Shown here: in pieces, positions 4,040 through 25,530 of the stretch
Layout of the letters: every line of letters begins with the position of its first letter
Position numbering within the stretch: the stretch's first letter is position 1
NCBI GenBank assembly: GCA_025024175.1
Contig: QCXZ01000003.1
Span: 14,295,621 to 14,359,620, forward strand
Source: Rhyzopertha dominica
Lineage: Eukaryota; Arthropoda; Insecta; Coleoptera; Bostrichidae
DNA: 64,000 nt
Reading direction: 5' to 3'
Made by a program: the position numbers and the translations under genes
Notes under the pieces: model-generated
What the model was told of the DNA's origin: nothing
The model's database searches: none
The model's input: the letters and a program-made list of their open reading frames with translations, nothing else

Positions 4040-4228
4040 TGAGGTAAATATTACATAGGTTTAAGTAAGAATTTAGATGGCAATGCCATCTATCACATTA
4101 CATTGACATGATGACAAAGCCACCTACGTGCCTTAACTAAACTGCACTGATGAGCTGTAATAACAGCGAAATAAATCTATCTGCAGTTGGTTGAGGTGCA
4201 GACAGCACAGCATAGACATGCATTTTAT
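4040..4228 (+). repeat. Hammerhead-bearing dispersed repeat, copy 1
   Basis: This segment matches the reverse complement of 24196-24420 over almost its whole length; shared blocks include ATGACAAAGCCACCTA and TGCAGTTGGTTGAGGTG. Copy 1 lacks about 45 bp that copy 2 has just upstream of the ribozyme core, which removes one side of the outer part of stem I. It lies on the same strand as the decayed Penelope-like element and about 1 kb downstream, with a foldback MITE between. It may be that element's terminal repeat, or an independent retrozyme or SINE-like element. Confidence 0.85.
4140..4188 (+). ncRNA. Hammerhead ribozyme, type I (copy 1)
   Basis: All core elements occur in order. Stem I 5' strand AACTGCA is at 4140-4146 and CTGATGA at 4147-4153. 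Stem II is GCTGT/ACAGC (4154-4158 with 4163-4167) with loop AATA. GAAA is at 4168-4171. Helix III is very short: the last A of GAAA plus UA pair with UAU around loop AAUC. The cleavage triplet is ATC, with cleavage predicted after C4181, and the stem I 3' strand TGCAGTT is at 4182-4188. Every invariant core base of the hammerhead fold is present. Short helix III is typical of metazoan hammerheads. Activity in cis is inferred, not shown; this copy has lost the outer stem I pairing seen in copy 2. Confidence 0.85.
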
Positions 4229-6039
4229 TTCATAGGTTGACCGAAAGGCAAGTAGGGACCGGTTTAGTGCTACTAGATTGCAGCCTTCCCTAGCTGAACA
4301 TTCAAATCTAACTAAACGTTTGACTAATTTTGAGAAGACAAAAATTTACATAAGGAAAATGTTAAAAATGTCTGGTAAAAAAGCTATAGAAATTTGATAA
4401 CTTTAATAGGGATAATGAAAATTACGTGCTGGATGATATGTGGAAGGCAATTTTGTAGTTTTCTTTTATCAAGTAGTTGGTATATATTTAGTAGGCACGT
4501 TGTTTCTCGGACGCCTGGCTTTCCTGTTTATTTGTTTATGGTTCTTTCCTTTGACAAAGATTACAGATGAAATGTAAACATCAGACCTCAGACTGATATT
4601 TTTTTGTGTAATAATTTCATATTATGGACGCTGAAAGCATTCACCACGTATGCTACTCGTATAGGTACCATTAATTTGCCACAAGCTGGCAGGTGCGAAA
4701 ATGCCTTTCGTTAACGATGCTCAATGTAAATTATATCAAATTCAAGCTAATTTTGCTCTGGGGAAAATAACATTCGGTTGCCAGTCTAACACCTGATCTA
4801 CTATCTAGCTAACTTGATTTCTTATATGAGAGTAGAACAACCAAATCCACGTAATTGCGAATTAACCTTTTTTTGTTGGCTCTATAAGTATCACCTATGA
4901 CTGATACACTTTTTCCCCACACCCACTTTTCCAATCAAAGCCGGCTCTCTTCATTTCTTCGCTTTCAAATTATAGATCGACTTGCTGCGGTTAACTCGTA
5001 ATCCCTGCTTACTAATACATACCTAGGTAACCTTAAGCCCCAGGCGGCTCAGTACAATCACGTGGACTTCTTGGAAAAGCTATTAGAAGGTCCGGTACGG
5101 CCTATCACAATAGTAAATTCTGACTGGCAGCTTATCTCCAGCGCGTTAACCCATGGAATACACGATTGTCTCGTTCTTTTGTTTCAGCTTTACATGGACG
5201 ATTATATATAGGAACGATCCGACAGTTCGTGAGGATACTATGAATACGATGGGGCAGAGTAACTTCAGGGTTAAGTATGTCTCGTGATAACAAATACGTG
5301 TGCATGAATTTGCCTATCACTGAGTAAAACAAATACAATATAGCAATATCTAAGGGCAAGGCCTAGACCAAAATCATGTCGTCGATATCTTCTTGCGGTA
5401 AGCGGTCCTACGCCTGCTGAAGACATTTACTAGTGGTTCAAAAGCCTTGATAATAATAATGGTGGCAATCGTGAAGTGACCTGGCGATGCTACGGCATAC
5501 ATGTTCTATTAGAAATATACCCGGGAACTTTACTAAAGCATCTTGTAACTCCATGAGCGGTTTAGCTTTGTCTTGTTTCCCAATGGTATTTGGATAGCCT
5601 CAATGTGTGATATATCAACAAGATATATAGAAAGATCCTAAGTCGACCATTTTTCTCACACCATCTCCTACTGTTGAGCGTGTCATTCGGGCTATTTCTC
5701 TTAAACTGAATCTTTCTCTTTCATCCCAGTGATACAATTTTTTTTAAAATCATTAATGGAATAAATCGACGACTTAGACTAATTCTAAGCATTTTAGCAA
5801 GATCTTCGATTACCACCAAGAACTAGGAGACATGTGTGATAAATATAAAATTCGTACACTAAAAATTGAGATAAAGCAGTAAAAATTGTATTGCTTCTTT
5901 CTCTTTAACTCAAATACGTACATATTTGCTATAAAGTATTGCATCACGACTGAGCTCCAGCCTACTTAATCGTTTCTGATAGGTTACCATAGATTAATGA
6001 ATTAAATTTTAATTCATATGTGATATTACATAGTCATGA
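4229..6039. other. No gene recognised
   Basis: No open frame longer than about 75 codons and no recognisable family was found. Base composition is more mixed around 5000-5500 than in the flanks. Nothing here could be assigned to a host gene or an element. Confidence 0.5.
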
Positions 6040-7230
6040 ATTTTTTTTGCATCAAATTTTTTTATAAAAATGCACTTACGACATACGACCAGACGAATTG
6101 GATATAAACAGGATTGTGGCGCAAATATAAAAAAAACTGTTCTTCAGCCCGATTACATTACTCATAGGACTTATTCAAATGAACTCTCTGTCGATATCAA
6201 GAAATTCAAATCATATTATGATAACAGAGTCGCAAATAAACTGAAAGCTTTATACTCAAATATACGGCAATTTACTTCCTCCAAAGTATCATGGCCTATA
6301 TATAAAAACAGCAGCGGTAATAAGTATGTTCCAGCGAGCTCGAGACTGATGAGGTATTTGCCGAACAATTTTGTATATTCGGCTAAACCAGACGATCTTG
6401 TACCTCATTATAATGGTACTATGAGTCCTCAATCGCTCATTAACAATTTGATTTTGAAACTGTCTGCAGGATACTGAAGGGGTTAAAAAATTCTTTGCCT
6501 GGACCAGATAAACTGTTTCCAAAACTTTTAGTTGAATGTACCAACTCTATGGCGTCCTATTTTCCTCCTTATAACCAGCGGAGTTCCACGAGGTTCCGTA
6601 TTAGGACCTATACTATTTCTAATCTATGGTGCAGACATGACATTGCAGTGCAAAACGTTCGTTTACTTTTCGGTAACTGATATTCAAAATTATTTGATTT
6701 ATTGTGAATGGTGTTTTGACCAGCTAGTATAAATCCAAGTAAATGGTCGGTACTTACAATCGGTCGGGATAATCAACATTTTGAGTACAGCATAAATGGA
6801 GCACAGCTTCTGTAAAATTATGGATCTGGGCGTAACTATCACAGGATATCTCGGCTGGTCTGCCCATTTGAGAAACTGGTAAATAAAGCCGCACGTTCTT
6901 CTTATAAAAAAAAGGCGTTTAATAATTCTGATCCCCAACTATCGCGTAAACTTTATATTACTTACATACTCTGGCTAATTAGAGGCAAGCTGCTAGAAAG
7001 AGTTCAGCGCAATGCAACTCGTTGTCCAAGACAGTTAGTTAAGACACCTCGCTTATGGAAATCGTTTGCAAGCATAGAATAACGACGACGAAGAAACTTA
7101 TTCTTCAGCCGTAGCAATTTCTGTTTCAAAAACAACACTAATAAGCTGAGAAAAGGACAATTTAGGACATCGTATCGTTCACATTTTCTTATTAAAGAGC
7201 GTTTAATGCATGGAACAGTCTGCTAGATAA
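6040..7230 (+). pseudogene. Decayed Jockey/CR1-type non-LTR retrotransposon
   Basis: The plus-strand frame at 6070-6477 reads like the linker before the reverse transcriptase (SYYDNRVANKLKALYSNIRQF, then a SAGPDKLFPKLLVECTNSM-like block at 6460-6540 across a frame change). GVPRGSVLGPILFLIY at about 6590-6640 is the RT motif normally reading GVPQGSVLGPLLF. Further on come an LGVTISG-like block near 6825, KLVNKAARSSYKKKAFNNSD at 6880-6935 and LERVQRNATR at 6990-7020, in the order expected for the RT thumb region. Multiple frameshifts and the missing 5' half mark it as dead. Confidence 0.75.
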
Positions 7231-10200
7231 CGTTGTGTGTTAGTGTTTCCTTTTTTAGCTTACAGCCATCAAGTAATAATCATATTTATAACGTAAAAGT
7301 CTACAACCACACCTTACCTAATCATATCTGACGTTAATTAATAAACAAACGTTCGAAAGAGAAATCCACGACAACTTTCATCCAAATCACAACTGTACTA
7401 AACTAGAAGTGAATTAACCCCATGGTATTCCCAACGACTTTCCAAATATTTGCCTACAATAATATGCCTTAGGGCTAAAACTCAAGCGGATTTCTTTCCT
7501 GGAATGTTGCTAATGTTTATCTAACTTCTGTGAAGTAGCTCTTCTCAAAAATACCTGAATAAATTTGCCATTCAGTCTCTCGTTTCAGTTAATGTGCAAC
7601 CCGATAAAAAGTAACGATTTATTTCTTATTCCGGCATCGATGACTATATCTATTAAGTTTTATTTGGTGCTTGATTTTCCAAATTTTGAATGACAGGAGT
7701 GTTCCATTAACGCGCCAACCTTGGGAAATTGGACTCTCTCCGTCTTTATAACGCCGCTACATTTTAAAACTGCTATAAACAAACCTCTATTCAGCATGTT
7801 TACAGATTATATAAGTAAGTGCAAATATATGTCGCGCACATAGTATGTCCGCGTAATTTTAGATTAACCTTGTTACGTAAAGCAAAAGTACATGCTATAA
7901 AAATGACCGTGGATGGAAAACAATTCGCACGCTGCAGCTGCCAACACTTGCAAAATAGTAAACGTCAAAGCTACGTTATCTTTATTATTCATCTTGAGAT
8001 TAATAAATAACAACACTGTTCCATTTCTGATTTGCAAAATGAGTAGGTATGTAGTGTATGCCTAAAGTACCTTATTCGACAAATTATTACAGTTAACGTC
8101 ATAAAAATAGCATCATTAACAAACATTTCGTAATGAATGAAACAATACGTGAATGACTGAGTTTGTAATGGCCAGAAAATTCACTACATATACGTCAGAA
8201 TGACAAAATAGAATAACAGACAATTGCATAGTATTTTAAAATGATTTGTTTAAACAGTAAAGTTTTGATATTCAGCAAAGGTTACTTAACGAATATTAAC
8301 ATTAATTGAATGCAATAAGTTTCGTTCACATGTCGTAATGAACGTCTTCAAGCATAACATACCACGAATGTGCCAAAAAACTTATTTATAGACGTAGCAA
8401 GGATTGCTTTAACAATAAAAATTAAACACTTTCGTTGCACGTTCCCAATCCTTATTAAATGAAAACTGAAAAAACAATGCATTGTATGATCTCACATTAA
8501 TAAATGAATAAACACAATTCCACCGACAAATGTTTTTATACACTGACTGAGAGGAATAAGAACACCCAATAATCATTATTTTATGTGAATAAACTTTGGA
8601 TTATTTCGATTTTGATTTGTCAGAATATTTAGAGCAAAAAGACGTGCAAATTTTCCTATACGATATAGAATTTTTGGCTTGTTATATCGTCCTGAGCTAG
8701 TGCTGCACTGCTGAGCATCGGGTAACCGACTGGACTGGTGCAGAGAATGAACTGGGAATGGCATACTGTTGTTTTTAGCCATGATGGTCGGATAGGTTTC
8801 AAAAGACGACATGGCAAAAGACCCGATCCTTTTTGGGCGGAAAGGCATAGGCACCGCACCGATTGAGTAATGATGTGGGAGGCTGTTGCTCACGACAGCA
8901 GATCACATTTGGTCTTTATCAGAAGCAACGCGACCGCCCTGCGCTATATCCCAAAAGCAACGTAACCACAGGTTTTACCCTACCTTAGGACCCTCCTCGC
9001 GTCCAATTTTTTAACAAGACTTTATGTAACCATAATTACTTTGGACTACTTTGAACAAAACAATCTCAACTTGTTGCATCAAAATGTCACGGTCTTAAAA
9101 TCATTGAATGTGTCTTATTATGGGTAGAATATTGACAATTTTATACCATTCTCCACGGACTCCAATGATATGTCATGATGCATTACAAGTCGATGCATCA
9201 GCAGTGTTAAAATCCATATAGCACCGAGGAGACTCAGCTTATTATTATTTTTAAGTCCTTAGTGTATGAGTGTCGTTTGACCTTTAATGGTTTATTTGAA
9301 TTTGCCCGATATCTTTCATTCTATAAGTCCGCAATTTATTTAGCTTCCAAAATCATAATAAAGTAAGTACATTCTAAATTATTTGATGTCGCTGCTCTAT
9401 ACCATCTTCAGATAGATGCGACAATATGAATACAATATACAGGGTTATACGAAGCGATTGTAGATAAAAGAACAAAATGTATGTATGTTATGTCATACGA
9501 ACCAGATTTTGGAATCTCAAGATCGAAATGAAAAAAGAGTAATAATCTTATCTAAGAACACAAAAGTTCTAATCTGGATGTATGGTAGGCACGAAGACGC
9601 AAAAATCGATTTTAGAAAATAAAACATACAAAGTGCAAAGACCAAAGTATGTCGAAAATTCCGTATTACTGTCGGAAGCATGGGAGAAACAGTAAATATA
9701 CTTGAAACAATTCCAAAATATCTTGCCTGAGTCCTAACAATGCTTTTAATGGAAGGTTTTTCCTCTGTTACAAAGAGGGTAATTGCATAAAGCTTCCGGT
9801 TGGTATAAACTCATTTAGTGCAATGTCAAAGAAGATTGTAAACTTTATGAATTTATCGCAAGCTCATACACAGGGCATTGTTTTAGAAGATCGTCCACTG
9901 GCAATCTTAGTAAGTACCGGAGCAGATCTATTAAGAATAATGCGCCATGAAATGAATGAAAATAAGAAAACACGGTCTCAAAAGTTCTTGGAGAGATTAC
10001 TAAGAAGTGCACCCAGCACTTCCTACCTAGATCTCAACCTTCTTAGAAAATATGCTTAGTATGTGGAGTGAAAGTAAAAGAACGGTCAAATATAAATAAT
10101 GCCTAGTCGCTATCAGTAAGGACAAATCCCGCAATATTAACTCTCATTCTTCCGAATGAACGATATTTTAATTTCATTTCAGCGTAACTATATAAATATT

Positions 10201-11090
10201 TTGCACTTTATGTTGATAATTATACATCATTGTAAGAAATAATAAATAATAGGGTGCCTAAATGCGAACCTCGAGTTACTTCATTTAAAATCGTCAAATT
10301 ATACAACTGCTTCTGGTTACAAGCATTAATACAATTAAACATTATCACAGAATCCAAAACTGTCAAGCTTACGCAACAATGTCAACCCTGCCTTTTGGTG
10401 TAGCCTGCAGAAATAAGCAAAATATTAACGAGAGCCTTTGAGAAACACTTCTAGTGCATTCCAAATAGGTGGGGATTGTTAAAATGACTGTTTACGACAT
10501 AGTTATACTGATTTTATTCAAGGTCTCTAGAGGAAACGTCGTTTAAAAGTTTATCTATAGGTTTAAAATCTACAATTTGCAGTCGCCAATCTATGCTGCG
10601 GTGAAATCAGGTTCTCTCACCTTAGATATTCGGATAAACAAATCCTTGACCTTGAATAACACTTTAAGGGGCTTAGTGTGTCTTTGCAGTCATTGAAGTC
10701 ACAAAACGAAATAGTGTTTAGCGTGTCTCACGCTATCAATAAATGTTGTTTGAACATCAACTTTGCCTATAGTAAGCTTTCCTCACTTTATATTAAGAAG
10801 AAGCCTCTTGTATACCCATTAACAAATCAATTTATTAAATAGTTCATTTGGGTTAACTTNACGACTGCATACATACATAAAAGTTTGTGATATCACTATT
10901 AAGAAGCAAATAGTAATTTTGTAACCCCTCTAAGTAAGAATTGTTTAATCTATTACCAATTATAGAGAAGAGCATTATTTTAAAATGCAGTCCATGATCT
11001 CAGTAGTAAGAGTTTAGGCTTATTTAAAACTTTCTTGTTTCAAAATATAGCCCAGAGGGTTAATTCGGGCCTGAGGACTTCTACATCAAC
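7231..11090. other. No gene recognised; a few short open frames
   Basis: The region holds no long coding pattern. A 78-codon plus frame at 9823-10059 (contains LAILVSTGADLLRIMRHEM) and a 105-codon minus frame at 8576-8893 are the only notable frames, and neither resembles a family I know. The segment 8640-9000 is richer in G+C than its surroundings. An N lies at 10860. Confidence 0.45.
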
Positions 11091-11575
11091 TCACCGAAAG
11101 TTTTCACACGCGCGCTTGCCTATAGACAGTCCACCAGACAGCCTCCAATCCACAAAACTAGAAATCACACGCGCGTAAACCGAGAAGGCACTTTTCCCGA
11201 CTCCGAGATTCAAAACGCCGGACGACGATCGGATGACCCAAGCTCGAGACAGGTGAGCGTCGAGTTCTCGCCTGAACAGGTGCACTGGATCGAGTGTGTG
11301 TACGTTGCGTATAGCAGGTTGCTGTTGCCTTCGATGACCGACTGGGACCGAAACCCACCTTCGGTCGCACAAGTGAATATTGTAATGGTTCGAGGAACGC
11401 TCCGGCAGGTAGATTGTTGTGGAATATTCGGAGGGAGAAGCCTGAAACTGCATACCTGTTTCGATTGCCCCAAAGTGATGTTTTTTTTTGTTATGGGATG
11501 CCGCATGCCCTGGTCAGGGTCGGACTCGTCGGGCTCGTGTGGGTGGGTGCGCAGAAGTAATAAAGCATAAATTAA
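11091..11575. other. GC-rich, CpG-rich island open on both strands
   Basis: About 480 bp stand out from the AT-rich background by many CG dinucleotides. Overlapping open frames occur on both strands (120 codons minus at 11091-11453, 105 codons plus at 11253-11570), as expected from low stop-codon frequency in GC-rich DNA rather than from coding. No motif was recognised. It sits beside a non-LTR remnant and might be foreign to the local background, such as a 5' UTR of a retroelement or a CpG-rich regulatory island. Confidence 0.4.
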
Positions 11576-11589
11576 TCATTTTTGTTATG

Positions 11590-12150
11590 TGATTCTTGTT
11601 TCACTAATTATTAATTATCTAACTATTAGAACGGTAACACCCAAATCTCTGTAAGTAGTTTCCCGTCTCAGAACATGACCTTCGATGTTATATTCAATAG
11701 TTTAATATTTAAGAGTTTTTTTTAATATACGAGACAACAATACATTTGTCTATATTCAGATCCAATCCGTTATCTTGCAGATGTTGACAATCATCATTAT
11801 TGTTAAATATTATAAAATAACTTCATATCATCCGCATGTAGAAGTGACGAATAAGTTAAGTCATTTGATATGTCATTAATAAATAAATTAAATGATAGAG
11901 GCCCCAACACTGAACCTTGAGAAATACGTGATAAAGGTGAAAATGGTTATAAGGTTTTTTCCCCACATATTGAACACTGACTTCTTCCGCTTGCATACGA
12001 CTGCAGAAAAACAACTAATTTACTGTGGATACCCATGGTACACAATTTAGACAAGAAAACCCATGACCTTGCTAAAGTCCGTGTAAACCCCATCTATATA
12101 CCCCAGTTATGTACTGTGTGACGGAAACTGTATTTGTATTAATGGAATGG
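11590..12150 (-). pseudogene. Jockey-type reverse-transcriptase fragment
   Basis: Minus-strand translation in more than one frame gives GVYTDFSKV near 12100, then QGSVLGPLSFNLFINDIS at about 11920-11870, HADDMKLFYNI (the YADD-type catalytic block, with H for Y) near 11830 and a LDLNIDKC-like block near 11760. The order fits the palm of a Jockey-type non-LTR RT. Stops and frameshifts occur throughout. The upstream side ends at the MITE that begins at 12162; I could not find the continuation beyond that MITE. Confidence 0.65.
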
Positions 12151-12161
12151 TTAAGCATATA

Positions 12162-12980
12162 CAGGGTGAGTCAGTTTTTTGTAGACAAACTTTAACAGAA
12201 GATAGAACACATGTTTTTAAAAAGAAAAGTCCCTATAAACATATGCCGTAGAAGGCTTCGTTTGCTAGATACAGGGTGTTGAATATAACTTTTTTTCTCG
12301 AATTTTCTTTCATTATAACTTATAAACGCATGCTAAGATTTTTCATGTTTGGGGGATAATGCCTATTAATTATTGAACAGGGGCGGAATGCCAACGACTA
12401 TTTGTAAAGAAAACTGTTATTTTCATTATCTACATTACATTTTAACAAAAATAATGTCCCTTCTTCTGTTTCGAAAATCCTGTGCGTTATTTTGATGAGT
12501 TAATGTTTGAGGTGGTACTGAATTAAGTAATTTAATTATTATCAATTATCGGCTAAATATTTAAAATAAATAATAACTCGGAAACGCACAGGATTTTCCA
12601 AACAGAAGAAGGAACATTACTTTGTTAAACTGTATGTAGATAATGAAAATAACAGTTTTTTTATTACAAATAGTTATTGGCGTAGAAGTTCTGTTTAAGA
12701 CAGGGGTTGAACACCCCCTCCACTCAGCCACTGTGCAAATTTTTGAACATTCTTATCGCTTGTTTTATGCCCCTTAATTAATAAGCATTATCCTCCAAAC
12801 ATGAAAAAAATCTTAGCATTCGTTTATAGGTTATAATAAAAATTCTAGAAGAAAATTATATTCAACACCTTGTATCTCGGAAACGAAGCCTTCTGCGACA
12901 TATGTTTATAGAACTTTTCTTTTTAAAACATATGTTCTATCTTCTGTTAAAGTGTGTCTACAAAAAACTGACTCACCCTG
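12162..12980. repeat. Long inverted-repeat MITE with TATA flanks
   Basis: Starts CAGGGTGAGTCAG and ends CTGACTCACCCTG, both flanked by TATA (12158-12161 and 12981-12984), which is probably the target duplication. The two arms (roughly 12162-12497 and 12583-12980) are inverted copies along nearly their full length, with a short AT-rich centre. A second nested motif, CAGGGTGTTGAATATAA near 12283 and its complement near 12855, suggests a composite or two-step origin. No coding capacity. Confidence 0.88.
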
Positions 12981-13739
12981 TATATACTCAGGTCCCATAT
13001 CGCGCTTCCACAGTGCAAAAAAAGTCAGTTCCCCGGAAAAAGTGATTTAAGTTATGTTTATTTCTTACCATTGGTTAACTAAGCATTATTAATCTGGCAA
13101 CTAATAGAGAAAGCTATAATGTAGAGCGAATTTATTATAGTTTTAGATATTGCACTCAGTTTCAAGAATTTTCCGAAAAAATAAGCAGTTACAGCCTATG
13201 GAAGTCAATGGCCTTCCATTTGCGTCACTGTTATTCTCCGACATTATTATACATTACATTATTATATAATTATTAATATTGTTCAGGCTAGATTTTTTGA
13301 TTTGAATGCCAAGATGGACATGTACTGGCATCTATCGAGAGAACCAATAAAAGACTAAAGGCGATAAGATCGAATAGGAAAAAAAGGACAAGTTAGTCAA
13401 AAAAAGATCACCAGCGTGTGTGTGCGATGTTAATTTATTGCCAATATTCGCGATCGCCCAGATTCTAACTGAGTAAATCTATCAAAAGGGGGTTCCTCAT
13501 TTCCATGTCCTTATTCTTCCCAACCCCCCTAAAGAGACGAGAAAGTCAGGAAAACTGGGGTAAGTGCGCTTTATTTTTTTTTTACTTATAATCACGATCT
13601 GGTGCATAATTAAATATCAAAAATAACTTATTAAAATTAATGTTTGCTTTGGGAAGAAAAAATAAGTATTTGGAAAATCTGTATTAATAATAATAATTGC
13701 AGTCTACAGTTCATAGCTGCTAAAAAATGGTTCATAAAA
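12981..13739. other. No gene recognised
   Basis: AT-rich sequence between the MITE and the nested retrotransposon cluster. No open frame or repeat could be assigned. Confidence 0.5.
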
Positions 13740-13974
13740 TGTATGAATGATATTGCCCTCTAGATTGAACTTAGTATAACACCTGTGCATACTACAATTA
13801 AGTAGGTTATAGATACCATATGAAGAATGATTATTTGTGACACATTCGACATAACTAACTAACTAATTCAAAATTTTCACGACGTTATTGCTGTTCTGGA
13901 AGTGCGCTATAATCTGTTTAACTTGTGGATAAGATACTTTAAACAGTTTAGCAGTCCATAACTATAATAGGTAG
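13740..13974 (-). pseudogene. Jockey-like RT, third piece of a split element
   Basis: Read on the minus strand this continues the reverse transcriptase interrupted by the Penelope-like insertion. After the shared CTACCTATTATA duplication come wording like KLF.VSYPQVKQII and then NNVV..LN.LVSYV, fitting the RT block after the NYRPI motif. Stops and frame changes are present. It is recognised mainly because it lines up with the two other pieces at 15419-15520 and 18353-18960. Confidence 0.6.
13963..13974. repeat. 12-bp target-site duplication of PLE-2 (left copy)
   Basis: TATAATAGGTAG occurs here and again at 15419-15430, immediately outside both ends of the Penelope-like copy. Both copies encode the same LPII residues of the interrupted Jockey-like RT, which supports a genuine duplication. 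Confidence 0.85.
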
Positions 13975-15418
13975 TAATATAATAATTATAACACTTGGTA
14001 ATGTTTCAGATTTTATTGAGTTTAACCTCTTACATGTTTCGGCTTATTAGGCCTTTCTCAAAGAGTTTACAAAACGAAACTGTTGCTTAAAGTTAGATGC
14101 AGATCCCACGAGCCTCTATACCTACGAGCGGGTGACATTTATGGCAGCGTTGATAAACAAACTAGGGAATTCCACTTGATCGTTACAGATATTTTTGTGG
14201 GGGTTGTTAAGTGTTCTGTTTATGTGTAGCTGTTCCAGTAATCCTAACCTGATGCCGTTTTGAACGTTATGTAATATTTTAAATCTTTTTTCGTCAAATG
14301 TATGATTGAGAGTTACACAATGTTTTGAAAAGCCAGTTAAGGTCCTATTATTTAATATGGATTTCTTATGTTCTTTAATTCTTTCCTTAAAACTACGACC
14401 TGTGCAATCTATATAACTAATATTACATTCTTCACAATTAATTTCGTATACACCACTTTTGTTACCGTTGTCCGTCTTATCTTTATTGTTTACTAACAAT
14501 GCTCCTAAGTTGCTTCTATTCACGGAAATAAACTTTCTATTGTCATTGGAGAGGTATCTTGACATTTTTTCACTAACATTGCCTATGTAATTTATTGACT
14601 GCCATATTTTAACTTCATTTGAGCTTTGCGAATGGTAAAATTGTGACATTATTAGTTTTGATTGCTTAATACTGATCATCTTTTCAATCAATTTTGGTTC
14701 GTACCCATTTCTTATTGCCAGTTGTTTAATAATGTTTGATTCCTTTTCAAAATCTGCTGTACTTAGTGGAACCTGTAGTAGTCTGTGAATTAAACTATGA
14801 AAAGGTGACAATTTTATACTTACTGATTGTTTAGATTCAGCATGAATTAATGTATCGGTAGTGGTTGGTTTTCTATAAATGCTAAAATTTAGTTTTCCTG
14901 AATTCTTTGTTATGGTAAGGTCTAAAAAGTTTATGCTGTTGTTGTTTTCTTTTTCTATAGTAAATTGTATTTTTTCATGAATACTGTTTATGTAATTCAA
15001 AAATTGATCCAAGTTTCTATCTGTACCTGTCCAAATACAAAATATGTCGTCCACATAACGTGCCCAAAACTGAATGCAATTGACTAGATTACTATTTGAT
15101 TTGAATATGATTTTTTCGAAATTATTCATGTATATCTCAGCTAGCAGTGGTGACAATGGAGACCCCATTGGTAAGCCATCTTCTTGCGTGTAATATTGAT
15201 TATTAAAACAAAAGTAATTTTGATTAATGCATTCATTTAATAATAAGACCAATTCTTCTCTGAGGGATTCATCTAAGTTAACTGAATTAATATGTTCAAT
15301 TACAAGATTTTTGACTTCCTCAACTGGAATGGATGTGAATAGGTTTTTTACATCAAAGGAAAGTAATTTTGTATTAGGTTGGAGGGTAATATATTGTAGT
15401 TTTGAAGTCAATTGAAGT
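13975..15418 (-). mobile_element. 5'-truncated Penelope-like element (PLE-2)
   Basis: A 1444-bp insertion bounded by 12-bp direct duplications. Its 3' end (low coordinates) carries an AT-rich tail and the sequence GCCTAATAAGCCGAAACATG, of a kind found in Penelope-like terminal regions. The 5' end is cut within the open frame, so only the RT palm onward and the GIY-YIG domain remain. 5' truncation is common for elements copied by target-primed reverse transcription. Confidence 0.85.
14122..15411 (-). CDS. Penelope-like RT plus GIY-YIG endonuclease, 5'-truncated but open
   Basis: A 429-codon open frame. Residues 1-220 are reverse transcriptase: SFDVKNLFTSIPVEE (about residue 18), EDGLPMGSPLSPLLAEIYMN (about 78) and the catalytic YVDDIFCIW (about 114), with both aspartates present. 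Residues about 315-400 are a GIY-YIG endonuclease: GVYEINCEECNISYIDCTGRSF, in which the usual YIG reads YID, then RIKEHKKS and a GFSKHCVTLNHTFD block. A full-length family protein would carry several hundred more N-terminal residues, lost here. The methionine at 15411 is simply the first in the truncated frame, not a natural start. The lack of stops suggests a fairly recent insertion; it is unlikely to be autonomous. Confidence 0.9.
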   Translation of the reverse strand: MTSKLQYITLQPNTKLLSFDVKNLFTSIPVEEVKNLVIEHINSVNLDESLREELVLLLNECINQNYFCFNNQYYTQEDGLPMGSPLSPLLAEIYMNNFEKIIFKSNSNLVNCIQFWARYVDDIFCIWTGTDRNLDQFLNYINSIHEKIQFTIEKENNNSINFLDLTITKNSGKLNFSIYRKPTTTDTLIHAESKQSVSIKLSPFHSLIHRLLQVPLSTADFEKESNIIKQLAIRNGYEPKLIEKMISIKQSKLIMSQFYHSQSSNEVKIWQSINYIGNVSEKMSRYLSNDNRKFISVNRSNLGALLVNNKDKTDNGNKSGVYEINCEECNISYIDCTGRSFKERIKEHKKSILNNRTLTGFSKHCVTLNHTFDEKRFKILHNVQNGIRLGLLEQLHINRTLNNPHKNICNDQVEFPSLFINAAINVTRS

Positions 15419-15520
15419 TATAATAGGTAGATAATTTACAATTTCAGCTTTATTGCCTTTTTTAAAGATGAAACATACTTTATAAATCTCTCATTTTAGT
15501 TAAAGAGATGTTAAAAAGTG
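15419..15520 (-). pseudogene. Jockey-like RT, middle piece between two insertions
   Basis: About 100 bp of the host retrotransposon trapped between the Penelope-like insertion and the MULE. Minus-strand reading gives NISLTKMRDL, a frame change, then KVCFIFKKGNKAEIVNYLPI, matching the conserved FKKGNK...NYRPI motif of Jockey-type RTs. It begins at the MULE target duplication (15512-15520) and ends at the PLE duplication (15419-15430). Confidence 0.8.
15512..15520. repeat. 9-bp target-site duplication of the MULE (left copy)
   Basis: TAAAAAGTG directly precedes the left terminal inverted repeat and is repeated at 18353-18361 after the right end. Nine bases is the usual duplication length for Mutator-like elements. 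Confidence 0.9.
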
Positions 15521-18352
15521 GGCGCACCGCAGCTCCGGTCCAGATAATCCAAGCTTATAATCCAGCACCGAAACTCCGGTCCGGCATGAATTTATACCTG
15601 TTTGCTTCTTAAGAACAAACCGTAACTCCGGTCCGGTTTATATCTGCTTCTAGTCTAAGGATGGGTTCAGTTCGCAGAACTGTTAAATTGTCTTTATAAT
15701 TTATGCTTCACCTGTAATACCACAAAATGATACCTATACTTTCAAAACGTCTAAGGAAACTACAGTTAGACGGTTAGAGTTCCTTATAGACTTGAAAACG
15801 TTCTACAAAATTTACTACAGGACTTTCGTCCTATAATAATAAGACCTCTTATTTTATAATTTTCTAATTTTGGAAATGGAGGTTATTACTAGATCTGCTA
15901 TGTATAAATTTGAGCCATTGCATGATTTTTATATACCTAACTCTTTTATTGTTTGAAGTGAATTTTGTGTTCAGTGTATCTGTCTGGTACAGCCCTTGAA
16001 AGAAGAAGAACTAATAATGTAGGACAAAAGTCCTACTTATTAACGAGGTCATATAACATAATGCACAATATGAAATTTCCAAAAAGTACAGTACAGATGT
16101 TTAAATTTAAACTAGTAAAGTGGAAAAATACGCCAGATAATTTAGAAAATTAGCAATTAGAATTATCCAGATTTGTGCAATTTGTTTGTGTGCATTTGCT
16201 CAAATCAAAGCATGATGAAATATAATTACTAGATTGAATGCTTAAAAAGTGCATTGTTTAATATTATTGATGATATTGTAAGTGATAACGAACAGAATGA
16301 TACTCGTAAAAAATCTTACAAACATTTATTTTCACTGAACATAACAAAAAACTTATACACAAAAATACATATCTACCTATATATACATATTTAAAAAACA
16401 ATTTCAGAATATTTATGGGAAACACATTTAACAAAATCGTATTTGCTAATATTATTATTTTGTAACTGAGAAATTTTGTTTTTAATAAAATCATGCGTTC
16501 TGAGAATATTTCGTTTTGTTGTTTTATTTGATTCTATTAAACTGCTACTGTTTATTTTAACATATGTATCTATCTGCATATTTTTTAATGCTTCTAAAAA
16601 AACGTGTATATTTGGGTGTGGTGTTGTACAATAACTGTTAAATTTCGAGTGAAAATATTCGCATGTGTTTGTTGTTCGCATGATTGAAGCCGTGTTTGCT
16701 GCCCAGATGTGGGGAGGAAAACAGTCGTCTTCTTCAATGTAAGTTTCAACTAAATAATCCACGAATTCCGTCACCCTAACATCGTTAGGTTTATCTGCGA
16801 CAAAATCCTCGACAAAAACTGATCCAACATCGTTTGGATGAAGAAAGGTCCATCCAAAAATGTGACGCAACCATCTCCCTACTTCAGATTCACCACATTT
16901 ATATTCTTTAGAAAGTCCTAATTGCTGAATCTTTCTCCACCTGCAAGCAAAAGAAAAACACGTACGTTAGCTATTAATTGTAAAATTGTGTACAATAATT
17001 ATGCGCCTCTGTTTTTAGCTGTTGAATGTAAATTATATATTATATATTAATATTGTATATATAATTGTTCTAAAAAATCATGTTTGCAATGTTTTAGTAG
17101 GTAATACAGAAAATACTGCTATTTTTTGCAATAGAAATTTAGAACCGACTTGTTTTTTATTTGTACTTGATTGATAAGAGTATGCTATATAGAAAATAAT
17201 TATTTTATAAACATATGTGTACGAGTATGTACTTACCATGACTGTGCTAGGTGGAACCTGCAACCAATAATTTTCGCTTCCGGCAACATCTCTTCTATTC
17301 CTGCGTGTATTCCTCTTTCAAAATCAACGACAATATTTTCAGGCTTCTACGTCAGTCTCAGTTCTTTACACTTATGCATAATAGTTTTAAATAATGTTGC
17401 ATACGTCGTTTTGAATTTGTTTTTTAGTAAGCAGTATACTAGCGGAACATATAGATCATTGCAATATGCATGGATAGTAAAGAGTTGTAAAAAATGCTTG
17501 GTGCAGTAGTCAAAAGTGCCATCGACATAAAAAGTGACTTGTTGGCACAGAAAAACTAAATTTGTTGTGCAGCTAAAGACGACGATGTTATTTGCAGTAT
17601 CATTTACTGTCAAAAAATCTTCGCCTTTGATGGTTTTTAGTTCAACCAAGCTCAAAATATTGTGCACTTCCTCTGTCGTCCGGGGAAGTTTCGGAAAACT
17701 TTAGCTTTGCCCTATTAATGCTGTCACGTATATATTTCATATCCTTAGTTGTAAGGGTATCTACAGTACTTTTTTGCTCATGCATTTCCCGATGAATTAA
17801 TTTTTACGGTCTTTCTGCTAGGCAATCACTCGCTTTTCTCTTTAAACTATTACTAATTTTTTGTCTATTCATGTCTTCGGTACGAACGCATTCGTGTTCG
17901 TGTACACCGCATTTTCTGGAAAACACTGGATGTTCACTGGAACCTAAGGTGTAGATTTTTGCTTTGCATGTTTTCACGATGCAACACCAACACATTTCGC
18001 TAGTGCTTTTTAACAGTTTATATTGGTAGAACTTGTAATGTTCATGTGTAAGGAGAGGTTTGCCCCTTTGACTGAACATAACTTCTAACGCCATTTTATA
18101 CACTTTCTATTATAACACGTAACTAGATGAACACAACTGCACTCCCGTATTATTTTCGCACAACTGAAGTGTAATTAGAATGAAATTACCTGAAGGGTTT
18201 ATTCTGATACATTTCCCAAGAATTTGCAACCCGGGTAGCGGGTGGTCCAGAAGGTAAGAATATTGCTTGGACGGGAGTTTCGCCATAGAATTATCGACCC
18301 TTCTTAGATTTAATAGTTTTATGATGGTACGGACCGGAGTTACGGTGCACCG
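15521..18352 (-). mobile_element. MULE (Mutator-like) DNA transposon, about 2.8 kb
   Basis: Bounded by 21-bp terminal inverted repeats (15521-15541 and 18331-18351; 17-18 matches, sharing the CTCCGGTCC core) and 9-bp target duplications TAAAAAGTG. The left end carries three direct copies of an ACCGNAACTCCGGTCCGG-like motif (15526, 15567, 15618); the right end has an inverted copy at 18331 and a degenerate one at 18269. These subterminal arrays are plausible transposase-binding sites. The internal gene encodes a FLYWCH finger plus MULE transposase. Removing the element and one duplication rejoins the Jockey-like RT in frame across the junction (HAYPLFNISL), which confirms the boundaries. Confidence 0.92.
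16391..18103 (-). pseudogene. MULE transposase with N-terminal FLYWCH finger, two stops
   Basis: From 18103 the frame gives a FLYWCH-type zinc finger (FYQYKLLKSTSEMCWCCIVK, then HEHE). It then runs through an in-frame TAA after LAERP into the MULE catalytic domain: FYVDGTFDYC with the first aspartate (about 17530), VDFERGIHAGIEEMLPEAK with the second (about 17310), GCRFHLAQSW with the conserved C-x2-H, and TNTCEYFHSKFN with the likely catalytic glutamate (about 16670). A second stop (TAG) sits just before KPENIVVDFE. An intron at 16941-17236 has GT-AG ends and rejoins QSW to WRKIQQLGL in frame. The catalytic residues survive, so the copy decayed recently. A domesticated gene is unlikely given the stops and intact element ends. 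Confidence 0.85.
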
Positions 18353-18960
18353 TAAAAAGTGGGTAAGCGTGCACAATCTTTTATAAAGAAAACGGTTCAT
18401 CCGGACCTGTGGTAGGTACATTTGGGTTTAAGCTTTTTAGATATTGCAAGGACATCTTCGGTTATGGCTCCCATTATTATGCTTGTAGTTTTAGTAGTAC
18501 ATTCTACCAAAAAAGAATTAGTAGACCGTACGTGAGCGGAGCCAAAGTAGTTGGCAAACTCATTAGCAATATCCTGAAGATTATCGATAACAGCATCATT
18601 TCCGATCATTAATTGAGGATTAGGGCGTGTCAGATTCCTTCTATTTAAATATATATAGGTCCAGAAACTTTGTGGATTAGAAGCAAAGAATATCTTATAA
18701 GACAAATTTCTTTCAATCGATTATAAATACTCACGATGTGAAAATTGTGCAGATTTTTAAATTTTATTATTAATTTATTAATGAAGTCTTCAAATCTTTA
18801 CGTAAGTAAGTAACGATTTGAAGATCTACTTTAAAGGACACCCATACCTTTTGTATTTGTTGAATGATGCTACTTTACGTCGGATGTCTTGGATGATCTG
18901 TTTGATAAACCAATTAGTTCTTGATGTGGTTGTAACTGCTACAAATTTACTAACAGACAA
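18353..18960 (-). pseudogene. Jockey-like non-LTR element, 5' piece of a split element
   Basis: The minus frame at 18397-18705 reads NPQSFWTYIYLNRRNLTRPN, then DNLQDIANEFANYFGS, the linker between endonuclease and RT of Jockey-type elements. A frame change follows, then TGPDEPFSL...KIVHAYPLF running straight into the MULE insertion point. Upstream (18720-18960) weaker matches to the WF...RRK...FNKYKR block occur. The endonuclease is missing. This piece, 15419-15520 and 13740-13974 are three parts of one element. Confidence 0.75.
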
Positions 18961-20579
18961 CGCTATTAATTAATTGGAAATCGGTAACTAATCGTCTTCT
19001 ATTTTAGCGTTAAAGTCTCCGGCATTGCACAGTTGTCATTACAAAATCTGAAAGCTCAGAGACGAAGTTTGGAGGAGCCTGACGTAGGTAAAACATAACA
19101 ACTTAAACTTTAATGCGTAGATGCAAATATTTTAATAAAAGTCAGAGGAGGTTGTACCTAGTTAACTATGAGCTAAAATAAATATGACAAAGATTAATTA
19201 TTTAAAGTTATTTTATTTCACAAGTCTTTTTTTTTCTCTGGGTTTTTTCTGTACTTACTGACCATAAAATGACGTAGTTGGTAGAGCCATGACTAAATAA
19301 GACACACCGATTTTCACACAATGGCTGGGAAATCGGCAATGCAGGATTCTGTAGTTACATCAGACGTACCAAGCTGCTTCCATAGTTTGTAAAACCACCT
19401 ACTACGCTTATTATTGGTGACGTTCACAAAATAATCTCTAAAGTGTGATGTAAGACGTATACACATCAAAATAAAATCGAAAGGGTATCAAAATGTGCTT
19501 CCAGTATTCCGTATATAAAATAATCAAGTTTTCCACAACTTAACTGTTCACAGTAGTAAGTGAAGTAAGAAATATCAGTTTCACGCACAACCAAAAGAAT
19601 AAAAAATAAATAAACTAGGTATTTGAAAGAAATGGCTTTGAACTTTGACACCGCTAAAATGCAATTTGCGTATATTCTATATAAATAAATGTGCTAAGTT
19701 TTCATAAGCTAATTAAAAAATACACTGTTCTTACACATTTAATATATCATTTTTTCTCAACGAATAATAGTTAAAACAATCGTCTATGCGTTTACATATC
19801 GACAATGTGAATGAATCACTGTGTTCTGTCCACGACTTTTTAGATTGCGACAAATTGTACGTTTTTAATTAAATAATTTTATAATAACAAAACTTTGCTA
19901 ACAAGAAGTTTTGCTAATTGAAATGTGTGGCTAACTTGTTAAGTCGCACAGTATTTTACTGAAGGTTGATCTTATTAAAAATTCGTTTAGGCACTGAAAA
20001 AGTTCTCCAAAAACATTTACATACTTTACCATGTTAATCATGTGTGAAGTCACTTTCAGCCTTTCTTTCATGCTGTCAATGTTAATATCTTCATAAGCAA
20101 GTGCTAAACCACGTTGTAGTAGGTAATCAGCTAGCTGTCACATCCTATATAAAGAAAATTAATGAAGTCTCTTGAGTAAATTATGAATAATGCAGAAAGC
20201 ATGTTCTAATTAATAAGTACCTAATTGATAATCTATGTTAAGTAGGAACTCAACGAACGTAAATTATTGCACCAACAGACGTGAGATGTTCACAGCATCA
20301 AAAATTTTGCTTAAAAGGAAAAGTTACATGAAAATAATATATTCGCTTATGCGTCAATGTTTAAATTAACTGTTGTCCAGATAAAGACTTAACTATACAT
20401 ACACGTAACACATGTTGAGTATAATTATTAGTGTATGTAAACTAAGAATATTCACTTTGGAAATGTTTAAGAAATTGGTAATGTAACATTCTGCGACTGG
20501 TATGGTTTTGTTAATTAGGATTTTCTCTGTCCCATGCAGAGTTTTGATTTTCCAGGCACAAGCGAATGGACACACTGTA
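18961..20579. other. No gene recognised; one short coding-like stretch
   Basis: Mostly AT-rich. On the minus strand 19270-19440 reads as an uninterrupted segment (NNKRSRWFYKLWKQLGTSDV and on) that looks protein-like but belongs to no family I can name. A short inverted repeat (CTTCAAATC with GATTTGAAG) lies at 18788-18822, just before this stretch. Nothing else was found. Confidence 0.4.
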
Positions 20580-21270
20580 GTTCAATACGACACGATTAGG
20601 ACTTCCACCAAGTAGTTCCTTCAGCGATGCGATGCTCTCTAAGTCTTCAGGTTGGATATGTACATTGTCCAGGTGGCTATGTTTCCGGCAAAGCTTCTTC
20701 AGGTGGGCGATGTGCTCCAGGTCCTTACTTCAGCAGATGCTTACGGCATGAGAAGAGGGAGCGGTGAGCTTCGGTTGATTTCGAGAAGAGGAGGGATTTT
20801 CACCAGATCCCTGAACATGCGGGTTAATCTGTGCTTACGTCATGGAAAATGTTTGCACCAGGTGTTTTAGACCCAACAGGTCTGCCAGCACCAGTTATTG
20901 GTATCTTTACACGAGGTCCCTAGCTACAGCATCAACTTGTAGGCTGAGTCTGAATCGTGCTGTAGGTAGTCGGAGGAAGATGTATATTTTCAGTTTGCCA
21001 CCCTGAATTGCGAGATGTCGGTTGTTAGTTCGCTCTAACTTTCATCCTTACTGTATATAACACAAACATCCACTCATTTTTTTTAGACGGGTCGGCCATG
21101 TCGTCCTACGTCGGGTGGAAGGCTTGCACCAGTTAGTTGGTAGCCGAGGAGTGCTAACGATATATGCTTCCTCCAGAGAGGCAGTTTGTTTCAAGTATTT
21201 GGATTGAACATCCAAGTTGTCTAGGTGCTTACGTGGGGAGGAGGTGCAACAGAGACCCTATTAGGTGGTT
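20580..21270 (-). pseudogene. Leucine-rich, repeat-like coding relic (family unknown)
   Basis: GC-richer than its surroundings. Minus-strand reading gives EHIAHLKKLCRKHSHLDNVH and QPEDLESIASLKELLG (about 20720-20600), and a similar unit KHLDNLDVQSKYLKQTASLE near 21220. A third diverged unit, RKHRLTRMFRDLVKIPPLLE, lies at about 20830-20770. The plus-strand string TGCTTACG recurs near 20739, 20830 and 21223, suggesting tandem repeat units. Stops and frame breaks occur between units. I cannot name the protein family; a degenerate repetitive gene or part of a retroelement are both possible. Confidence 0.4.
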
Positions 21271-21689
21271 AGTACTAAACTAAATTTAAGGGCCACACAA
21301 TCTTGCACTATAGGTGTAGTTGTTTTATTGAGTCTTTGAAATAGCATACCACATTTCATATCTAACAACCAACGGATATTTTGGCATGTACAACATTTGA
21401 TTTAGTTACTAAAACTAAAACATTAAAGCCAAAACATGAGTTGATCCGTGGAACTAAGAAGTTAACGTTAATTAAATTAAATAAACGTAGGTAGAGTGAA
21501 TTTATGTAAAATGAGAAAGAAGTAGTTGTTGGTCAAATCTCCTGGGCGGATAAAAACCATCAAGCAAGAAACACAAGAACCTAAGAAAGAAAAGACCAGA
21601 CGGAACTAAAAAATCAAGTGAAATGAATGACTTCGCTCTTAGCCCACCCAGAATCTCTACAACTGCGATAGATAAATGCGTATGACATA
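21271..21689. other. No gene recognised
   Basis: Sequence between the repeat-like coding relic and the next RT fragment; no motif seen. Confidence 0.45.
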
Positions 21690-22215
21690 TGTATATGTTT
21701 TAGTGACCACGTTTAGAACATGATTATTAAACGTTAATTTAGTATCAAATAAAACTCCCAAGTCTTAAATGAGATCATTTCTGTAAAGGATAGCATCACT
21801 CATTTTGTATAAAGATACAAAAATAGTACACCTTCGAATGTTGCGTTCAAAATGGTTGGAACAAGCACCAATCACTAATTACATTTATGTCGTTTTGAAA
21901 ATGTTGAGTTGACAATCCCTTATTGAGTGAATTTCTTTAAAAAATTTTAAGTCATCACCAAGCATAAGTGTTGAAGAGGATATCCCGTCGTTAGTATCAT
22001 TGATAAGTAACAAATTAACAAAGGTCCTAAGTTGGAACCTAGCGCGACTCCGGATATTGCGGTAAATGTACAAAAATAGTTACCGTATCTGACAATCTGT
22101 TGTCTATCAACCATATACTTACCTAATAACATTTGCAGCCCATATCTGATAAAATATTCAGCAGATGTCAATCAAATCCTTCATCTTCTGGCACTCGGAT
22201 GTAACTATAAAACGC
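21690..22215 (-). pseudogene. Jockey-type reverse-transcriptase fragment
   Basis: Two overlapping minus frames (22171-21947 and 22073-21885) together give RQQIVRYGNYFCTFTAISGV, a GSNLGPLLICYLS block equivalent to the GSNLGPLLFLLFIND motif, and TLMLGDDLKFFKEI equivalent to the YADD catalytic block with G for A. The order is that of a Jockey-type RT palm. It is frameshifted and truncated at both sides. Confidence 0.72.
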
Positions 22216-24195
22216 CGAAAGTAAATGCAAAAATGTAACTAGCTTTGAATATAAAACTTATTTTTATATTCAAAGGTAACTAGTGATACAGACAGGAATT
22301 AAGGAAATTTTCGTCTAGTTATTTTGGAGCTCATGCACATCCCATCCAAAGGATTTGGATTTTATTTTAATCAGACACGCAATAAACGATTAGATTTATC
22401 AAATTGCAAGCAGCACAACTTAGAGGATTTCCTTTTGAGAGACACTCTTGAACTAAAACTGCATAAATTCCAGATTTTCAACGAATTAAAGATAGTTTTA
22501 TTTTTCACAATGGTTAATCGTGGAACAAACTCTGCAAGCGCCATGCAATATTTGCATTTCGTTTACTACTGCTCATTTGATGAGTTAGTCTTTTACTGTC
22601 AACATGCCGAAATAACATTTTTTGTGGGTAATATGAAACTTTTATAGAATATAGGTACACCACGCATTTAAACAAATAATGTAAATATGTTAGGATAAAA
22701 ATGCACGATTGTAGATATTTGAATTGAGCAAGTTAACATCTATTCCCGCTACAACCAGGAATCTTGCAAAACTAAAATTATTTTAAATTATCTTAAATAA
22801 ACTAAAAATATTAATTTTCAGATACTCTTAGTTTTCATGAACTTTTACTGTATTGGTCTATGCCAACATTATTCATAAGACTGATCAAATCCAACTGGAT
22901 GCGCTACCTTTTAGTGTGTCACAATAACATAACGCATTAATTCAGCGTACAGTTTCCATGAATGAAGTGTATGATGATACCGCAGCTGGACGATCTCTCG
23001 ACTGTCCATATGACAGCCATTGTGCTCGTTTTATACGCGGCCAGTAATGAGAAATGGCCTTTCAGCCACAACAACATGTGAATAACAGAATAAGGCGGCA
23101 TGTTGTGCATCTCATTACACAAGAGCGTCACAAAAACTGACGATCTTATCCGAGCAAGTAGATTTTTAAATCGCCGTAAGGAATAAATGCCAAGCCTTCT
23201 TGGACCAAGGCCACACTCTATATGCCCCCATACCAACATTCCACGGCTTGTCCTGCTGCATACACCGTCTTATCCGCGGATTTTTTCATATCTCTTTGAT
23301 ACACCTCTGCCTACGCGTTTATTCAAATTAACGCGGATTGTGGTCCGGCGCGTCATAACATTCCGGTTTTTGTTACAGCCCTTTAAATTTTCTATAAGAC
23401 GTATGAGTTTATAACAGAGGTGGCTTGCANAAAAACATTCGTGTTCTACTAATAAATTAAATAATAATATATGTAGGTAGGTATTGGCGCACCGAAGGGG
23501 GGGGGGGGAAGCTGCCCCCCCCCCTGGACCTGGGCTGCCAACTCTGGGCCCTTACAATTTCCCATACATTTAGCTGGTTAATTATGTGTGTATACCTAAA
23601 AATTGTCTTATTTACAAAATTGTAAATTCAGTAAAATTTATGGGCGTGTATTTCACAGTTTTTATCCAGAACTCATATTTGACCCTTGCAAATGACCTTC
23701 TCTAATAAATCGTTGTCAAATGGTTTCCAAGCTTAATCGATGCCATGTGAGTTTTGAAGCTGTAACTGCAACATCCTTGTTACGAATTGTTGTCTTAAAG
23801 CGGATATAGCTTTAAAAGACTATCTTGTTTAGGATGAGTCATAACACGATTTCTGCTTAGTTCAGCTCTTCTACCTTTTCCTATAAAGATTGTTCAACTA
23901 ACTACTGTTATATGGAATCACATCAGAAACTATCATATATTGAGTGATAAATCTAACTTTTGTACCAAATTTCTAAATTCACATTACATTTTAACAATTA
24001 ATACAAAAAAAAAATAAAAATCCATCTGCTCTCACGTTTATCATAAACGTTTATGAAAGTCAATTTATTTAATAGAAGTTTTAGGAATCCAGTACAAGCA
24101 TTAACAGCACGAATTAAAACCAGGTGTGTTGTTAAAAATGCAATTAAATATATTTCAGTTTATTTAAATCAAGCTTAATTTGGTTAATATATTAA
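22216..24195. other. No gene recognised; holds a G/C homopolymer hairpin
   Basis: A 100-codon minus frame at 22937-23239 and a 107-codon plus frame at 22324-22647 show no recognisable family. The 22930-23410 part is richer in G+C than the flanks. The G-run/C-run structure at 23497-23524 is listed separately. An N lies at 23430. Confidence 0.4.
23497..23524. repeat. G12-AAGCTG-C10 inverted homopolymer run
   Basis: Twelve consecutive G bases are followed after six bases (AAGCTG) by ten consecutive C bases. The strand can fold into a GC-only hairpin, or the G-run may form G-quadruplex-type structures. Homopolymer length may be affected by sequencing error. Confidence 0.8.
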
Positions 24196-24420
24196 GTAAA
24201 ATGCATGTCTATGCTGTGCTGTCTACACCTCAACCAACTGCAGATAGTACTATTTCGCTGTCATTACAGCTCATCAGTGCAGTTTAGGTCTAGTGTAGAC
24301 AACACGGCATAGAACTGGTTTTGCTTATAATATACCAAAGCTAGGTGGCTTTGTCATCATGTCAGTGTAATTCTGACAGATGGCATTGCCTTCCTAATTT
24401 CTTACTTTAATATATTAAGT
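24196..24420 (-). repeat. Hammerhead-bearing dispersed repeat, copy 2
   Basis: The reverse complement matches 4040-4228 (copy 1) across nearly its whole length, with about 45 extra bases between the ATGACAAAGCCACCTA block and the ribozyme core. Those extra bases include GTCTACAC, which pairs with GTGTAGAC downstream, so copy 2 is the more complete one. No Penelope-like coding sequence was seen next to it. Confidence 0.88.
24221..24300 (-). ncRNA. Hammerhead ribozyme, type I (copy 2, complete stem I)
   Basis: Read on the minus strand from 24300: outer stem I GTCTACAC pairs perfectly with GTGTAGAC at the other end (24228-24221). Inner stem I AACTGCA (24284-24278) pairs with TGCAGTT (24242-24236), with an internal loop between the two helices, as in natural hammerheads with loop-loop contacts. 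CTGATGA is at 24277-24271. Stem II is GCTGT/ACAGC with loop AATG. GAAA is at 24256-24253. Helix III is A-UAG/CUA-U with a UA loop, one pair longer than in copy 1. The triplet is AUC, with cleavage predicted between 24243 and 24242. All invariant core residues are present. Confidence 0.92.
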
Positions 24421-25530
24421 AGTCGGTTCATTTTTGAGAGCAATGCACTGGCTACCTAAGATGGTTGGCTTGACGCATAATGCTGAGGTATTTGTAATTC
24501 TGAGTTTTAATAATGTTAGTTATACATCGAGTCTCTTTCCCTGGGGAGTAAATATTACTACAATTGTATCTTTAGCACCTATACATATGAACTCCTAGCT
24601 TAAATTTCTAAAGCTTCTAGTGTGAGAAGTTGAAACTGTACTAAAAGCGAAACAGTTAATGCATTAGTCTTTGATATGTGTTAAATCTGAATCAGAAATC
24701 ATGGTCCTATTAGTAGGACTTTTAAGGTGAAATTTATGTTCCTTTGGTACTTCGTATGATATCATTATACATTATGTGGATCACGGATCTTTATTCTCCC
24801 AAACAAAATGTATCAACTCGTCTTTTGTTAAACGCGAGAGAGATACAACTGAATGCGCCTCACCTGAGTTCATCAATAACTGAATTAGTAATAAAGNGGA
24901 TTTGTATGNTCAGTATACACAGAAAACATATAAATAATTTGGGTCTTTATTTCATAGATGNTTTAAGTCGCCTTGCAGAAAATCCACGAAGATTATTCAT
25001 GGAATAAATACTTCATTAATCACTTAAGTACCTATATCTTATAAACGTTTATTATTTCTATTTATGTTGAATTATACTCTGCAGGACGNTCNTGCTTTGC
25101 CCTCCCCTAGACCAAAAGCTGGGTATGCCCATGTGGTAGGTATTCTGCCGTTGTGCTGAAATGATGGAACAAAAATGCTGTAAAAAGCCGTTTTGTTCCT
25201 TATGGAAATAATTATTCTTTTGTGACTAATAAATCATTAAGGAATTTATTACACCTAGACGGTGTTAAAAAAGAAGGTAAGATAATCGTGACGTTGACAC
25301 ATTTTACAATGCAATTTGGGGACACGATACACAAATACATGGTATGCCATNGCGCATATTCGCAGTTCTCCTTGCACAGTTGTGACGTCACTGTCGAGGA
25401 AAAATCCGCTTACTAGAACAAGTGACACGGTATTTTTAATTTAAATCTCTGTATCTTTGTTGACAATGTAGCTAGAAAACTCATTTTTTGTACTTTTACT
25501 ATTTCGATGGTGTATTAGAAATTAATCAAT
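24421..25530. other. No gene recognised; several N bases
   Basis: Ambiguous bases cluster here (about 24897, 24909, 24961, 25089, 25092, 25351), so frames are unreliable. No motif, repeat pair or RNA fold was recognised. Confidence 0.45.

Follow-up and report, generated by a model that had tools for sequence, protein, structure and literature searches.

Two type I hammerhead motifs in a dispersed SINE-like repeat of the beetle Rhyzopertha dominica

The genome of the beetle Rhyzopertha dominica includes a stretch of 64,000 nucleotides (nt) in which two sites resemble hammerhead ribozymes, lying on opposite strands. This stretch, all of which was analysed and which is referred to below as the window, comprises positions 14,295,621 to 14,359,620 of contig QCXZ01000003.1 (assembly GCA_025024175.1). 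The locus raises the question of whether the two sites are genuine hammerheads and, if so, what kind of element carries them and how it came to be inserted twice. Both places are type I hammerhead motifs, confirming the observation made in an earlier reading of the same DNA (the original prediction). From their sequence, the repeats that contain them are read as two separate retro-insertions of one element resembling a short interspersed nuclear element (SINE).

The hammerhead of copy 1 occupies positions 4140-4188 of the forward strand and that of copy 2 positions 24284-24236 of the reverse strand. Each is 49 nt long and is identified by a motif descriptor, an Rfam match, and the alignment of the two copies. 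The original prediction was right in its coordinates, in the opposite strands, and in the invariant core elements, and the predicted cleavage site, C17, corresponds to C4181 in copy 1 and C24243 in copy 2. In copy 1, stem I (AACUGCA/UGCAGUU) encloses the core CUGAUGA, a stem II (GCUGU/ACAGC) with loop II AAUA, the following GAA, and a helix III (AUA/UAU) with the loop AAUC. Copy 2 has the same stems and core, a loop II of AAUG, and the same AUA/UAU helix III closed by a palindromic loop, GUAC. The invariant type I core (CUGANGA...GAAA, A15.1-U16.1, and H17) is present in both copies; stems I, II, and III are pairable in both, and stem I opens to the flanks.

A strict type I descriptor (CUGANGA, a stem II of 4-6 base pairs (bp), GAA, A15.1-U16.1, H17, and a stem I of at least 5 bp), composed post hoc with both copies already known, matches two places in the window; 300 dinucleotide-shuffled versions of the window contain no match. 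A 25-base search of the window allowing up to three mismatches returns both hammerheads only, where none is expected. When the descriptor is loosened to the core with a stem II of at least 3 bp followed by GAA, a single place is added, at 6346 on the forward strand; it has a 3-bp stem II and fails the strict descriptor. The best Rfam model for both copies is RF02275 (Hammerhead_HH9), which scores 31.9 bits in copy 1 and 28.0 bits in copy 2 (E-values of 4.4e-4 and 8.1e-3, respectively, computed over all of Rfam).

The differences between the two hammerheads are confined to their loops. There are four in the 49 nt, one in loop II and three adjacent in loop III. All four fall among the 8 loop positions, and the 41 bases of the core and stems are free of differences. 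The probability of differences restricted in this way is 3.3e-4 if they are independent and roughly 0.014 if they are counted as two events.

Helix III differs in part from its original description. In copy 2 it had been drawn as UAG/CUA around the loop UA, an arrangement that needs a hairpin loop of 2 nt, which is sterically impossible; the helix is instead AUA/UAU, of 3 bp, with a GUAC tetraloop. Compensatory change had been thought to keep the helix paired. Because the paired bases are identical in copies 1 and 2, however, helix III contains no evidence of compensation. The helix III region of copy 2, AUAGUACUAU, is a perfect palindrome of 10 nt, and two copy 2 molecules could form a 10-bp intermolecular helix III (computed at -9.6 kcal/mol for the bare 10-mers). 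Excerpts of PMC3088659 describe interspersed-repeat hammerheads in Aedes whose palindromic loop III can give a dimer stem of 10 bp, and the GUAC palindrome of copy 2 corresponds to this dimer signature. The likeness to the Aedes aegypti hammerheads, which rests on motif anatomy, also includes the insect host, the dispersed repeat, and the short helix III, but it does not extend to a palindrome in copy 1.

Stem I continues beyond the motif in both copies. The outer stem I that the original prediction had given to copy 2 is present, but it is longer than the 8 bp claimed: the 5' arm (24292-24313, reverse strand) pairs with the 3' arm (24208-24229, reverse strand) over 7 + 14 bp about one unpaired base per side. 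Reading outward from the hammerhead, stem I of copy 2 comprises 4 bp, 14 bp, and 7 bp in turn, the last two being 24313-24292/24229-24208. Nor is a long outer stem a feature of copy 2 alone. In copy 1, a different 5' arm at 4128-4139 (forward strand) is fully paired with 4188-4199 (12 of 12 positions, G-U pairs included), and just 5 of the 63,750 other 12-mers of the window would pair as completely; the idea that copy 1 has lost its outer stem I is accordingly rejected. The U-A pair 24225/24296 of copy 2 is matched by the C-G pair 4199/4128 of copy 1. Stem I of copy 2 includes an internal loop that could serve tertiary contacts between loop I and loop II.

The hammerheads form the 3' part of a larger repeat. 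Alignment and target-site duplications delimit copy 1 as 164 bp (4062-4225, forward strand) and copy 2 as 208 bp (24199-24406, reverse strand). The copies are 90% identical over 109 bp around the hammerhead and 88% identical over 69 bp upstream, and 44 bp of copy 2, between the 5' domain and the hammerhead, are missing from copy 1. Their 3' ends lie at the same base and their 5' ends 2 nt apart. The conserved 5' domain (24342-24406, reverse strand, in copy 2; the aligned counterpart in copy 1 is 4062-4126, forward strand) is about 64 nt long and is predicted to form its own hairpin. It differs at 11 of 64 aligned columns, 5 of them in the first 8 columns, where the alignment is doubtful owing to the 2-nt offset of the 5' ends. 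Stop-free stretches, taken over all frames, reach at most 30 amino acids (aa) in copy 1 and 37 in copy 2.

Both copies are bounded by target-site duplications. The sequence TACTTAATATATTAA stands at the 5' end of copy 2 (24421-24407, reverse strand) and again at its 3' end (24198-24184, reverse strand), with 15 of 15 bases matching. The left and right duplications of copy 1, TATTACATAGGTT and TATTTCATAGGTT (4049-4061 and 4226-4238, forward strand), match at 12 of 13 bases. Scored as length minus twice the mismatches, the duplications reach 15 in copy 2 and 11 in copy 1, and the best score in 400 random pairs of flanks is 10, a comparison that somewhat favours the copies in that the search was wider around them (about 50 nt) than in the random pairs (30 nt). 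In 391 of these 400 pairs, whose flanks lay 200 apart, there is no repeat of at least 8. Independently of the difference in flank width, the duplications directly abut the sequence shared by the copies at both ends. They are rich in adenine and thymine (guanine-cytosine (GC) content 0.07 and 0.23), as is the window (0.34); the GC content of the two copies is 0.40 and 0.41. The motif, the two homologous copies, and the target-site duplications support the reading that the repeat bearing this type I hammerhead is dispersed and SINE-like; they do not establish membership in retrozymes or Penelope terminal repeats.

Weak similarity matches, among them those of both hairpins to themselves on the opposite strand and one at 32671-32765 (66%, E 0.013), were not counted as copies. 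An inverted-repeat (foldback) element of about 890 bp (3126-4016) ends about 30 bp before the left target-site duplication of copy 1.

The element is probably a short, non-autonomous, SINE-like retroelement of about 208 bp, with a 5' hairpin domain and a 3' type I hammerhead, that would cut itself and be copied in trans. Such an element would have no open reading frame (ORF) of note, a hairpin domain of about 64 nt at its 5' end, and a hammerhead near the 3' end closed by a long stem I. It would be transcribed, with the hammerhead cleaving the transcript 44 nt short of its 3' end; cleavage would probably work best in a dimer formed via the palindromic helix III of copy 2. The reverse transcriptase of a Penelope-like element or of a long interspersed nuclear element (LINE) may then copy it in trans, and insertion would take place at a staggered break of 13-15 bp, to which the duplications at both copies correspond as scars. 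Both inserted copies include sequence on either side of the cut site and end at one common 3' base, so the template RNA was either uncut or re-joined (circular). In the predicted fold of copy 2, the 5' domain forms a hairpin of its own and stem I is very long. At -76.6 kcal/mol, the 208-mer has a z-score of -6.6 (-7.3 in a second fold run), and none of 200 shuffles is equally stable.

Several observations weigh against this reading. The covariance-model match above threshold that the original prediction had looked for is not obtained: neither copy reaches the gathering score of RF02275 (52), a curation threshold rather than a biochemical feature, no family reaches its gathering score in the window, and the helix III region and outer stem of the copies align poorly with the model. 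Between the copies, the 37 nt downstream of the hammerhead show one difference, and because this stretch is also conserved, the conservation is not specific to the ribozyme. In both 49-mers, the minimum-energy fold has a non-hammerhead core and is better by 3.6-3.7 kcal/mol, which points to weak folding of the monomer as far as such energies tell; nearest-neighbour energies leave out tertiary and core contacts. Copy 1, of which 131 nt were folded, has a z-score of -2.1, with 6 of 200 shuffles equally stable, and its counterpart of the copy 2 palindrome, AUAAAUCUAU, is no palindrome. No promoter was identified in a tRNA-gene search and a B-box scan inside both copies, and the copy count is two, within the 64-kb window. 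Under the assay conditions described in excerpts of PMC3088659, a comparable Aedes RNA was not cleaved in vitro.

Among the alternatives, it is possible that the copies are solitary units shed by a true animal retrozyme of the kind without long terminal repeats (non-LTR), with tandem arrays elsewhere in the genome being transcribed and their RNA cut into monomers of about 208 nt, which are circularised and inserted as one-round copies. Excerpts of PMC7229834 describe such retrozymes as tandem units with type I hammerheads; their RNAs are 170-400 nt long and both linear and circular, their GC content is below 50%, and their target duplications, when present, exceed 4 bp. Similar repeats are reported there in insects among others. 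The beetle element shares the type I hammerhead, a short unit of low GC content, target duplications longer than 4 bp, and, as predicted for copy 2, a highly self-paired RNA. At 208 bp, copy 2 lies inside the size range of the circles, and copy 1 (164 bp, with 44 bp missing) lies just under it. Copying a circle once from a set starting point would likewise yield fixed ends. In contrast to the tandem retrozymes, however, the copies are solitary and their ends are fixed, both beginning and ending at the same junction rather than being permuted. The tandem dimers for which the original prediction proposed to search are absent from the window, where neither place has a second hammerhead, a tandem repeat, or an array.

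Somewhat unlikely is an origin from a Penelope-like element that bears this hammerhead and resides in the same genome, the copies being either solo terminal repeats or non-autonomous derivatives of it. Excerpts of PMC7761336 report that dispersed minimal type I hammerheads number in the thousands, with some lying in Penelope terminal repeats, and state that Penelope-type hammerheads with a short helix III may act as dimers and that retrozymes could count as a SINE family. The copies resemble the minimal hammerheads of Penelope-like elements and Terminons in their weak helix III, possible dimer action, and dispersal, and the short helix III of copy 2 with its palindromic loop fits this type. 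They differ in that they lack a Penelope ORF, are single, and retain a 3-bp helix III. For an anole Penelope element, excerpts of PMC11167929 give unprocessed RNA as the main template in vitro, as both beetle copies also suggest, and report that the Penelope protein prefers to cut AT-rich DNA.

A Penelope-like ORF is present in the window (14122-15417, reverse strand). Pfam identifies RVT_1 only; a GIY-YIG-like C-terminus is recognisable by eye, and several homologues are annotated with GIY-YIG (PF01541). The ORF matches residues 292-716 of a 720-aa homologue and therefore represents a 5'-truncated Penelope-like element. Its best named relative is from Harmonia axyridis (45%; 120 of 1098 matches listed), and among the matches listed is a database protein with 99% identity over 81% of the length of the ORF. 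About 9 kb separates the ORF from the nearer copy, and neither copy is found at the ends of the ORF. No sequence common to the 208-bp element and this Penelope-like element was detected, and derivation of the one from the other is rejected. Downstream of the ORF, at about 14062-14033 (reverse strand), is a different hammerhead-like motif, recognised by eye (UUGAGAA core, GGC/GCC stem, CAUG); it is degenerate, with U and A at the places of C3 and G8, and is not reported by the Rfam search. An ORF combining reverse transcriptase and GIY-YIG between hammerhead-bearing repeats was not found in the window.

It is rather improbable that both copies are dead relics, in which a ribozyme that once worked no longer cuts today. 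Copy 1 lacks 44 bp and the palindrome, and the predicted energies of both monomers favour other pairings; yet the copies do not differ at any of the 41 core and stem bases, which fit the hammerhead. A chance resemblance, for which the Rfam scores below the gathering cut-off might speak, is practically negligible in view of the empty shuffles (0 of 300), the confinement of differences to loops, and the E-values of both copies over all of Rfam.

The copies are not SINEs of the tRNA type, a possibility rejected on finding no tRNA gene and no B-box-like site (with up to two mismatches) in either of them. Elsewhere in the window, at 25528-26003, a direct repeat of 112 bp, its copies sharing 90% identity at a distance of 364 bp, has a perfect B-box-like site between them, at 25772, and is a possible tRNA-type SINE. 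Other neighbours include an inverted-repeat element with arms of up to 89 nt (12154-12988), an Ipi1/TEX10-like ORF (28595-29392, reverse strand), and a 598-aa ORF with a DDE_1 transposase domain in Pfam (48326-50122, forward strand), which is followed by a frame (50273-50626) that appears PHD finger-like by eye. The Ipi1/TEX10-like ORF has 13 relatives, three of them named (Rhamnusium bicolor, 50%; Agrilus planipennis, 46%; Leptosia nina, 45%). The protein relatives are in line with an insect, perhaps beetle, host.

As judged by titles and abstract openings, none of the papers listed in literature searches deals with a beetle hammerhead retroelement. An exact-pattern scan of viral contigs gave no match for the hammerhead pattern and none for the 5' domain. 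The same kind of scan of prokaryote genomes gave one match, a separate candidate in a contig of a Saccharibacteria metagenome-assembled genome. By eye, positions 7715-7768 of that contig form a candidate type III hammerhead with the same 25-nt core and stem II, a stem I of CACGA/UCGUG, a helix III of AUCGU/ACGAU, and U at H17. It scores 22 bits with Rfam HH9 (E 0.083). Its predicted minimum-energy fold is not a hammerhead. The GC content drops from 0.61 to 0.40 there, and the contig may be a chimera.

The beetle element is best filed as retrozyme-like or SINE-like. It is assigned neither to retrozymes nor to Penelope elements, because the window contains no tandem array, a defining feature of retrozymes, and no Penelope ORF is attached to it. 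Its kind is already known in animals, and these copies are solitary with clean insertion scars rather than arranged in tandem rows. That they represent a separate class, a "hammerhead SINE" defined as a solitary, fixed-end, target-duplicating retroelement with a ribozyme 44 nt before the 3' end and two stem-I subfamilies, is quite doubtful. If such a class exists, the cut would strip off the end used for priming and thereby limit retrotransposition, and the subfamilies would keep the outer stem via different 5' arms (12 of 12 pairs versus 7 + 14 bp). Excerpts of PMC7761336 describe as a mystery what minimal type I hammerheads do in animal retrotransposons. With monomeric, scarred copies that span the cut site, a simple reporter can test what part cleavage plays.

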